The notes under the pieces: model-generated | Database searches by the model: none | The model's input: the letters and a program-made list of their open reading frames with translations, nothing else | Told to the model about the DNA's origin: nothing | Part shown: piece after piece, positions 38,330-42,919 of the stretch | Numbering within the stretch: the first letter of the stretch is position 1 | How the letters are laid out: each line of letters opens with the position of its first letter | Translations under genes and position numbers: made by a program | Origin: Balamuthia mandrillaris | Taxonomy: Eukaryota > Discosea > Longamoebia > Balamuthiidae | Length of the DNA stretch: 64,000 nucleotides | Direction of reading: 5' to 3' | Assembly (NCBI GenBank): GCA_031835245.1 | Contig: JAVKOQ010000085.1 | Location: forward strand, 124,001 to 188,000

Positions 38330-38687
38330 AACAAACATCGTGCTCTTTTTTTTTTTCATTTGTTTTAAAAAAAACATCACCTTCTCTGTATCTCTCTCCC
38401 TCCCTCTCTCTCTGCTCTCTGCTCTCTCCTCTCTGCTCTCTCCACTCTCCTCTCCTCTCTGCGTTTGCGGTGAATGTAAATGAGGGTTAGGGTTAGGGTC
38501 AGGATATAAGGTTAGCGATGAGGGTTCAAGCTGCCCTGGGGCACGGTCCCCAGCGCCTCTCCCTTGCCTGTTGCTTCCTTTCTGTGTGCCGCGAGCAAAA
38601 AAAAAACCCAAACAGCCCCTCCCCCCCCCCTCCCCTCCCCCATCCCCTTCCCCTTCCCACACACAGTAACGCAACACAAAAACAACA
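38330..38687. other. Intergenic/promoter of fusion gene
   Basis: About 360 bp with CT-rich runs, a telomere-repeat-like motif at 38483-38498 and a C-rich block near 38621-38640. No gene is supported. Confidence 0.5.
38483..38498 (+). promoter_or_regulatory. Interstitial telomere-like motif AGGGTTAGGGTTAGGG
   Basis: Two and a half TTAGGG units, about 190 bp before the start codon of the sepiapterin reductase-adenosine kinase gene. TTAGGG is the telomere repeat of myxomycetes and vertebrates. It could be a telobox-like promoter element or a chance/relict insertion. Confidence 0.45.
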
Positions 38688-39356
38688 ATGCAAAGCTCAG
38701 CAGCAGCGTTGATCGTAAGCGGCGGTTCTCGTGGCTTTGGCCGTGCCGTAGCTCAGCAGTACGTGGAGCAGTGGCCGGTGCCCCAAAAGACTCTGCATGT
38801 GTTCCTGTTGGGACGGGATGAGGCCGCCCTCAAACAAAGCCAGCAGGAGGTGGAGCAAGCTGCTGCCGGCAAGGAAGGCCACTCCCTCGCGATTTCCACC
38901 ATTGTGGTTGATTTCGGCAATGCCGAGACTCTGCCCGCCGCTCTTGAGGCTGTCTTCTCTAAGGTTTGAAGCCCTTCTCGCCTCTCTCTGAGTGTCATCA
39001 CTTAAAATTATGCCAACGATTTGTGTCTTTCAACCGGATGAAAAATAGGTAGACGCCGGAGCCTATGACGCAGCGTGCTTCGTAAACAACCACGGAAGCC
39101 TGGGTCTGGGCACAGTGGAACAGTTTGGCGAGCAAGCCAAGTTGGGAGAGCTCCGCCAGGCCATCGACGTGAACGTGACCTCCGCGCTGGCCCTCACTGC
39201 TGCCTTCGTTAAGCACTTTGCTGGCAAGCAATTGACTGTGGTCAACGTGTCCTCTCTTGCTGCGCTGCAGCCATTCCCAGAGTGGGGCCTCTACTGTGCC
39301 GGCAAGGCCGCCAGAGACCAGTTCCACGCGGTTCTCGCTAAAGAGGTTTGATTCTA

Positions 39357-39407
<51 letters not shown>

Positions 39408-41111
39408 CTTTCTCTCCCTCTCGTTCTCTCTCTAGACGCTGTTAATAACACTTTGCGATTCTTTTTGTTATCGTTTTCGAAAAACGAAAACGAAGAAACC
39501 GGAAGTGCGAGTATTGAGCTATGCCCCAGGTGTTATGGATACTGACATGCAACGCATTATTCGCGAGGTAAGCACCCATAAAGAACAAAAAGAGTATTTC
39601 ACACGTTTGCACAACGAGGTAAAGTTCTTCTCTCTTAGTGACTCTCTCAGTTCCACTCTTCAATTTCTTTCACTCACTTACATTGACGCGGCGCAATAAA
39701 GGGGCGGGTACAAAGCCCTGTTGTTCCTGCCAGAAAACTGGTGCAAGTGCTTGCTGAGAACAGTTTCGAGTCTGGGGCTCACCTCGACTTTGTCAACGAC
39801 CTGATGAAAGGTGTGCTGCTCGGCGTCTGCAACCCATTGCTCGACATCTCAGCGGTGGTCGGTAAAGAGCTTCTTGAAAAGTAAGCTTTTTTTTTGCATC
39901 TGCCATCTTGTCCATATGTTTCTAACCTACTGTTTGCACGTGCGTAGGTATGGTCTCTCTCCAAGTAACGCCATTCTTGCAGAGGAAAAACACCTTCCCT
40001 TGTACGTACACCCGGTTCGTTTCTTTCTCATGCTTTCGGTTTCTCACCTTTTCTTTTGTTTCTTTTTATCTTGGTTTGCACGTGTAAATAGGTACCAAGA
40101 ATTGGTGTCCAACTATCCAGTGGAGTACATAGCAGGAGGTGCTGGCCAGAACTCCGTCAGAGCTGTGCAATGGATGTTGCGCGTGCCCGGTGCCTCCCGT
40201 TACATCGGTTGCATCGGCAAGGACAAGTTTGGAGAGACATTGAGGGCCGCTGCTGAGAAAGATGGCTTGGACGTACATTACCTGGAAGATCCCGACACAC
40301 CTACCGGCACCTGTGCTGTGTTGGTTACCAACAAAGACAGGTCTCTGGTGGCCAACCTCTCTGCTGCCAATTGCTACAAGAAGGACCATCTTGACAACAA
40401 CTTCTTTTTGGTGGAGCAGGCCAAGTACTTCTATGTGACCGGCTTTTTCCTTACTGTCTCCCCTGAAACGCTGTTGGCTATTGGCGCCCATGCTGCTGAG
40501 AGAAACAAGCCCTTCATGATGAACTTGTCCGCTCCTTTCTTGATCGACTTCTTCTGGGATGGCAAGATGGAGAAGCTGCTTCCTTATGCTGATGTTGTGT
40601 TTGGCAATGAGCACGAAGCTGCTGCCTTGGGTCGCAAAATGGGATGGGGTGTACGTACAATCCCACTATCCACCCCTCATTGCTTAGTTTCGGGTGGCTT
40701 GACTAACGAAATATATTTTAACAGGAGAACCTGAAAGAAGTGGCTGCTAAGTTGGCTGAAATGCCGAAAGTGAACACAGCACGCCCTCGTACCGTCGTAT
40801 TTACTCAGGGTGCTGAGCCGACTTTGGTATTCCATAATGGCGAGGTACTCTCCTCTCCTATCATCCATTGTCTTATTTGTTTTTTAAACTTGTGGGCAAA
40901 AAAGTTATTGGAGCTGGCAGTACCACCCGTGCCCACTGAAGAGATTGTAGACACAAACGGAGCAGGAGACTGCTTCGTGGGAGGTTTTCTCTCTCGCTAC
41001 ATCCAAGGAAGGCCCCTCACCGAGTGCGTGGAGGCTGGAAACTACTGTGCCGGTGTCTGCATCCGAACTGCCGGCATCAAGTTCGAGGGAACTCCCACCT
41101 TCCGGCCTTGA
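38688..41111 (+). CDS. Sepiapterin reductase-adenosine kinase fusion protein
   Basis: Eight exons (38688-38963, 39049-39345, 39496-39618, 39702-39880, 39948-40001, 40092-40650, 40725-40844, 40905-41111) sum to 1815 nt, 604 aa in one frame. Residues 1-266 are a short-chain dehydrogenase matching sepiapterin reductase: cofactor motif SGGSRGFGRA, then VNVSSLAALQPFPEWGLYC with the YxxxK pair in YCAGKAARD, VLSYAPGVMDTDMQ, and the C-terminus SGAHLDFVND. In place of a stop, the next codons are CTG ATG. ATG (39804, Met267) opens a complete adenosine kinase: GVCNPLLDISAVV, AGGAGQNSVRAVQWML, TGTCAVLVTNKDRSLVANLS, GFFLTVSPETLL and the catalytic loop DTNGAGDCFVGGF. The two halves should make tetrahydrobiopterin-type pteridines and convert adenosine to AMP. 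Both active sites look intact. An internal start at Met267 could also give free kinase. Confidence 0.9.
39362..39433 (+). repeat. (CT)n tract in fusion-gene intron 2
   Basis: CT repeat with TTTC interruptions, sense strand, inside the sepiapterin reductase half. Confidence 0.9.
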
Positions 41112-41485: not shown

Positions 41486-42919
41486 ATGGCGCACTACGAG
41501 GAGCAGGAAGAGATTGAGACGGTGGGAGGTGGCCTCAACGTCACCCCTGAAGAAATCACCAAGATCAAGGAGATGTTGATGGACACCTCTTTGCCGGTTG
41601 CTCCCCGCTTTCGTGCTGTGTTTACCCTTCGGAACATTGGAGGCGAACTCGCCATAGATGCGCTCGCTGAAGGTATTATTGCCCCAGTCATCTTTGAATA
41701 ATCGTTCCTCCTCTCCATTCTAAGCGGGTCCTCTGTCTCTGTCTCTCTGTCCGTAAATACAGCTTTGATGGCAGACAAGTCCGCCCTGTTGAAGCACGAA
41801 ATAGCGTATGTGTTGGGCCAGATGCAAAACCCTCACGCCATACCCTACCTCAACCAAGTTTTGGCTGACGCTGAAGAAGACCCAATGGTCCGCCACGAGG
41901 TACTTTTCCTTCTCCACCCCTTTTTCCTGCCTTTTGTTGTGTTTTTCTTTCCTTGTTTTTTTTGGAGCTACTTCTTAACTTTGGTTGGTCTTTTCTTGTG
42001 GGGAGATAGGCTGGTGAAGCACTCGGCGCTATCGGAGACCCCAAGTCATTGGAGGTGTTGGAACGGTTTGCTACCGACCCCAGACCCGAGGTTTCTGAAA
42101 CATGTTCCTTGGCCATCGATACCATCAAGTACAAACTTAAAGAAAACAAAAAGACGTACGTTTCCTTCTTTTCCTACCTTTCCCTTCCCCTTTGTTTCTT
42201 ATAACCTGATGTACTCTTTATAACCACAAAGGCCAAACCACCCAAGCCCATACTGCTCAGTGGATCCAGCCCCTCGTTACAGCACTGATGATGTACAAAA
42301 GCTAAAAACTCGTCTGTTGGATGAATCCCTCCCGCTGTTCAAACGCTACCGTGCCATGTTCGCTTTGAGAGACATAGGTGATACTGAGGCTGTTGAGGTA
42401 TACTCTTGCCTCTCTCTTTCTCTCTCTCTCTCTCTCCAGCTGATCCGCTTCGTTCATTTTAATTTTGTGTCTTCATTTTTGTGTGGGTGTATCAATGCAA
42501 CAACAAAGGCGTTGGCAGCAGGCTTCAGGGACAGCAGCGCGTTGTTCCGCCACGAGATAGCGTATGTTTTGGGTCAAATGGCGCATGAGCACGCTGCTCC
42601 CTCCCTTACCGTCATCCTGAAGGACATGAACGAGCATTACATGGTCAGGCATGAAGCGGCGGAGGCCCTTGGTGCCATTGCCAGCTCGGAGATAATGCCT
42701 ATGCTCCAGGACTTTTGCAATGACAAGGAACAAGTTGTTAGGGAAAGCTGCTTAGTTGGTATGTTTGCTTTCTTTTTTTTTTCTTAATCCGAACAACCTT
42801 AACACCCCTTCATTACAGCGGTGGACGTTAGCGATTACAACACCTCGGACACATTCGAGTATGCCGACACCCTAAAAATCATACGAGAACAAGCGGCTGC
42901 TACTGTTGAGTCTTCCTAA
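41486..42919 (+). CDS. DOHH: Deoxyhypusine hydroxylase (HEAT-repeat diiron)
   Basis: About six exons. All-helical HEAT-repeat protein with the four His-Glu iron-ligand motifs: [41 protein letters not shown] and [14 protein letters not shown]. The two halves are pseudo-repeats joined by a linker ([15 protein letters not shown]), as in other DOHH proteins; the C-terminus is [16 protein letters not shown]. The enzyme hydroxylates the deoxyhypusine residue of eIF5A, completing hypusine. Splicing across 41885-42010, 42155-42231, 42395-42508 and 42759-42820 restores the conserved helices. Stop TAA at 42917-42919. It lies 374 bp after the fusion gene on the same strand. Confidence 0.93.

Follow-up and report, generated by a model that had tools for sequence, protein, structure and literature searches.

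Sepiapterin reductase and adenosine kinase joined in one continuous reading frame in Balamuthia mandrillaris

Sepiapterin reductase (SPR) and adenosine kinase (ADK) are two well-studied enzymes that ordinarily occur as separate proteins, as they do in humans. SPR is a homodimer assembled through a four-helix bundle; the active-site residues of the human enzyme are Ser157, Tyr170 and Asp257, and the D257H substitution abolishes sepiapterin reduction, according to PMC7520308. Residue numbers in mouse SPR are one higher than those in the human enzyme. Eukaryotic ADKs, represented here by maize ADK3 (8rpa) and the human enzyme (1bx4), are full-length kinases that carry a DTNGAGD motif. No description of an SPR–ADK fusion was found in the literature, as covered by titles and the openings of abstracts, and neither 'sepiapterin' nor 'fusion' occurs in the main text, supplements apart, of the Balamuthia transcriptome paper (PMC8569187). 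The preliminary description of this locus had called the fusion undescribed; that stands for the literature covered, but a public record labelled 'Adenosine kinase' already contains the protein, and EukProt has a second fusion. The domain combination thus appears to be unreported, with public data naming only its ADK half.

Gene structure and the join

The window, by which we mean the whole 64,000-nucleotide stretch of B. mandrillaris DNA that was analysed, encodes a complete SPR and a complete ADK as one continuous reading frame at 38688–41111 on the forward strand. Rebuilt from the sequence, the gene has eight exons that sum to 1,815 nt, or 605 codons including the stop, and specifies a polypeptide of 604 residues with a computed mass of about 65.5 kDa. 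All seven introns run from GT to AG and measure 60–150 bases each, and introns 1–3 are positioned between codons. Pfam assigns PF00106 to residues 8–214 (92.1 bits, cut-off 26.6) and PF00294 to residues 288–594 (241.1 bits, cut-off 25.8).

The first three exons belong to the SPR half. Exon 1 (38688–38963, residues 1–92) contains the start codon and the NADP-binding SGGSRGFG motif, exon 2 (39049–39345, residues 93–191) contains NNHG and the catalytic S161, Y174 and K178, and exon 3 (39496–39618, residues 192–232) contains SYAPG and DTDM. The join itself falls within exon 4 (39702–39880, 179 nt), where the last 34 SPR codons (233–266), including that of the substrate-anchoring D261, run on in an open frame to the first codons of ADK. 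It reads ESGAHLDFVND-LM-KGVLLGVCNPLLDIS, where KGVLLGVCNPLLDIS is the start of ADK, without a stop, spacer or change of frame. The CTG ATG for L266 and M267 lies at 39801–39806, and the internal ATG (39804–39806, with C at −3) marks the ADK boundary. The remainder of the ADK half is spread over exon 5 (39948–40001, K292–L310, with K292 split by intron 4 and L310 by intron 5), exon 6 (40092–40650, L310 to residue 496, with AGGAGQN, PTGTCA, NLSAPF and GNEHEA), exon 7 (40725–40844, residues 497–536) and exon 8 (40905–41111, residues 537–604 and the stop), where DTNGAGD occupies residues 552–558.

These results bear out several points of the preliminary description: the in-frame passage from SPR into ADK within a single exon, the eight exons totalling 605 codons, the presence of both catalytic signatures (YCAGK(AARD) and DTNGAGD), and the assignment of the two halves to the SPR and ADK families, which holds by Pfam, TIGR01500 and PDB matches. 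Its myxomycete and plasmodial setting has to be replaced, as the organism is B. mandrillaris (Amoebozoa, Discosea, Centramoebida).

The join is real in the DNA and not a sequencing slip, because a second contig and a deposited protein agree with the reading frame of the window. The minus strand of contig C289 encodes the gene with the same exons and junction and no exonic indel, which answers the earlier concern that a base might be missing at the junction. Across 2.8 kb of alignment, C289 and the window differ at 85 columns, 74 of them outside exons and the other 11 in exons 6–8, with exon 1 identical; the coding sequences are equal in length, and ten of the 11 coding differences are silent, the remaining one being E501D. 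The public record P0001, 'Adenosine kinase [Balamuthia mandrillaris]', is the 604-residue fusion and equals the translation of the window except at E501D, where it carries the C289 residue. In three sampled stretches C289 was collinear with the window at about 89–99.9% identity with unaligned gaps between, and because the two align in order in this way we regard C289 as probably the other haplotype.

The genome searched is a draft assembly of 64.8 Mb in 775 contigs, and in a draft a missing base or a false join might merge two neighbouring genes into an apparent fusion. We consider such an assembly or gene-model artefact very improbable in this case, given that two contigs differing at many other sites share the junction and that P0144, the EukProt protein, which by its name comes from a transcript assembly, has the same kind of join. 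RNA-seq was, in addition, used in the annotation of what is probably the same assembly, the published Balamuthia ITSON01 assembly comprising 65.2 Mb in 841 scaffolds (PMC10471605). Public Balamuthia RNA-seq is listed in that paper under BioProject PRJNA975899.

Features of the two halves

The SPR half matches the NCBIfam sepiapterin reductase equivalog TIGR01500 over residues 7–263 with 208.0 bits, a margin of 1.5 bits over the cut-off of 206.55. The runner-up among NCBIfam models scored 122.5 bits, under its own cut-off of 292. As in SPR (TIGR01500; human structure 4hwk), the half has the reductase fold, the NADP motif, the S-Y-K triad, the pterin-anchoring Asp and the C-terminal SGAHxD, and it is about 36–38% identical to the mouse and human enzymes. 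S161, Y174, K178 and D261 align with S158, Y171, K175 and D258 of mouse SPR, so that all four residues are kept. Mouse SPR ends a few residues past SGAHxD, whereas the Balamuthia chain continues into ADK.

The N-terminal half might instead be a reductase that descends from SPR but acts on a different substrate, or might serve as a structural domain, and the narrow TIGR01500 margin, a long branch of 0.96 in the SPR tree and the key residues lost from the reductase half of P0144 all point in that direction. We regard this as distinctly unlikely: the triad and the anchoring Asp are all kept in Balamuthia, no NCBIfam model fits better than TIGR01500, and the genome has matches to pterin-pathway enzymes and to biopterin-dependent hydroxylase, yet no other SPR was found in it.

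The C-terminal half is, as judged from sequence and predicted fold, a full-length adenosine kinase and not a ribokinase. Its best PDB sequence match is an ADK (399.4 bits), with ribokinase-named chains reaching at most 54.8 bits, and its predicted fold compares with that of maize ADK3 at a TM-score of 0.94 (normalised by target) and 54% identity. Among the matches listed, solved plant and mammalian ADKs are about 48–54% identical to it. It shares full length and the DTNGAGD motif with the maize and human enzymes, and the last Asp of that motif, D558, is the residue that we take to be the catalytic base. Unlike these enzymes, the ADK of the fusion has no free N terminus, as the SPR C terminus leads straight into its first residues.

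AlphaFold, given an input alignment of 27 rows, predicted the fusion chain with a pLDDT of 89.9 and a pTM of 0.86. In the model residues 262–267 form a short helix that joins the halves, between a strand at 258–261 and another at 271–274. The weakest blocks (means of 54–64) are around residues 111–120 and 161–170, both in the SPR half.

Products of the locus and related genes in the genome

We think it likely, from sequence and predicted structure, that one gene gives rise to one mRNA and one bifunctional polypeptide whose two active sites are independent. The N-terminal half would be a working SPR, which uses NADPH to complete tetrahydropterin synthesis, and the C-terminal half a working ADK, converting ATP and adenosine to AMP. 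If the SPR halves pair as SPR does elsewhere, the product would be a dimer bearing two ADK modules. The bifunctional enzyme proposed in the preliminary description is therefore retained as the best-supported reading of a sequence and a predicted structure. Its further suggestion, that the fusion coordinates methylation with pterin supply, found no direct support. The SPR and ADK reactions have no common intermediate, so that any benefit of the union would lie in shared dosage and location rather than in channelling. Provided that both halves are active, Balamuthia supplies two pathways from a single gene. As to its origin, the fusion is likely to have arisen when two genes arranged head to tail lost the stop codon and the spacer that separated them, since the join is internal to an exon and a Met is kept where ADK normally begins.

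That Met also bears on whether the locus could yield two products, with ADK made alone from M267 or from a promoter near exon 4, or released by cleavage at the junction helix, and with the fused protein minor or short-lived. M267 occupies the position at which ADKs in the same clade start, and its start context is not evidently inferior to that of the gene that probably follows: the −3 position holds A at ATG1 only, C at M267 and T at the ATG at 41486. Because the probable next gene has T at this position, the context of M267 argues little. In the spliced frame M267 is separated from ATG1 by seven other ATGs, which makes scanning to M267 unlikely, and production of SPR alone would call for a stop or a poly(A) site, neither of which is offered by the junction exon. 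An AATAAA occurs at 39695–39700, just ahead of the intron-3 acceptor (39701); it precedes exon 4, and if used would leave an SPR fragment without D261. P0144, moreover, has no Met at its join. We consider two separate products unlikely on these grounds, and favour the single bifunctional polypeptide.

No second SPR or ADK gene was found in the 64.8-Mb draft with family and protein queries, run in six frames and exon by exon. The SPR half used as its own query gave ten matches, eight on the two copies of the gene and two weak ones at 31% identity; P0013 gave seven (six on the two copies, one weak at 29%), and all six given by P0132 fell on the two copies. A search with PF00294 returned 12 matches, four on the two copies and eight on contigs C3, C12, C378 and C16, where the matched regions had no tblastn match to the fusion protein at 1e-3. 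Several families related to the two pathways scored over their cut-offs: GTP cyclohydrolase I on one contig, the PTPS family in two places, biopterin-dependent hydroxylase on three contigs, pterin-4a-carbinolamine dehydratase with 13 matches, and S-adenosylhomocysteinase, which releases adenosine, on one contig.

Two minor observations arose from these searches. Weak pterin-4a-carbinolamine dehydratase matches of about 33 bits lie within open frames of 390–403 residues at C18:278281–278517, C555:26431–26667 and C575:16517–16726, and possibly represent another pterin-domain fusion. In contig C3 (569,775 bases), a sampled 6 kb at 420000–426000 has 21–34% GC and includes a PfkB gene whose reading frame contains four TGA codons. 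TGA encodes Trp in mollicutes, and the contig has the appearance of a mycoplasma-like contaminant or associated organism.

A second fusion and the history of the union

The EukProt protein P0144 (542 aa, with a Trinity-transcript-like name) combines an SPR-type reductase with an ADK that follows it immediately (PF00106 and PF00294). Its ADK half is 65% identical to that of Balamuthia, and the two reductase halves align over 190 residues with 79 bits. The joins read GQRYSYQTQ-KGSLLGF in P0144 and GAHLDFVNDLM-KGVLLG in Balamuthia, that of P0144 being two residues shorter. P0144 has a Met at 168 and the next at 279, on either side of the join at 209, and because none lies between them its ADK could hardly be started on its own. 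The reductase half is divergent, its highest identity being 28% (to P0037); Thr replaces the catalytic Ser, an equivalent of Asp261 is lacking, and the protein as predicted is without the NADP motif and about the first 60 residues. With these losses, and with a score of 81.5 bits on TIGR01500, its sequence suggests that not all fusions have retained SPR activity. The partly degenerate P0144 thus offers a natural series for testing whether the union is useful or merely tolerated.

The protein search with the SPR half (lengths of about 332–1057, 8,000 candidates scored) returned 12 proteins, among which only P0001 has both domains. The search with the ADK half covered lengths up to about 591, a range that excludes P0001, and among the best 120 of 5,337 matches a single protein, P0144, has both domains. 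Since the SPR-half search missed P0144, further fusions that are longer or more divergent may have escaped detection. A scan of viral contigs, limited to SPR patterns, picked out 36 stretches, none of which was confirmed.

An ADK tree of 32 rows (the two fusions and 30 proteins chosen from the best 120 of 5,337) placed both fusions inside one clade of 11 with support of 96/96. Within it P0144 groups with P0186, P0189 and P0190 (100/99), proteins that start at ADK. The two fused ADKs as a clade of their own were rejected by the AU test on this tree (p = 0.003), and a five-row group of both fusions with P0186, P0189 and P0190 was not (p = 0.088). A quick ADK tree of 82 rows gave the same grouping, the clade gaining P0199. 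P0136 and P0140, of the same clade, have a non-SPR sequence ahead of ADK, and the SPR half had no match among the best 120 of 5,337 ADK-search proteins except P0144. By sequence, then, near ADK relatives in the clade appear unfused, which suggests that the SPR–ADK union is not required there.

With both fusions in a supported clade but not sisters, either one fusion was followed by losses or there were two fusions. The near-identical join favours a single origin; against this, both joins fall at the natural ends of the two families, and a shared reductase half is not supported by the SPR tree (75 rows), in which P0144, with an end branch of 3.31, could not be placed and is not joined to Balamuthia. 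We offer only tentatively, as a doubtful but possible history, that the fusion arose once, in the ancestor of an amoeba clade, as a bifunctional enzyme coupling the output of pterin cofactor to the salvage of adenosine. It would then be the sole source of both activities in Balamuthia, the reductase half of P0144 would be decaying to a non-catalytic or repurposed appendage, and other relatives would have lost the fusion, leaving ADK free again.

Two further features flank the Balamuthia gene. A HEAT-repeat gene, presumably encoding deoxyhypusine hydroxylase, lies on the same strand from 41486 onward and probably starts about 375 bases past the fusion stop, and a short telomere-like stretch, GGGTTAGGGTTAGGGT, lies upstream of the fusion gene at 38484–38499.
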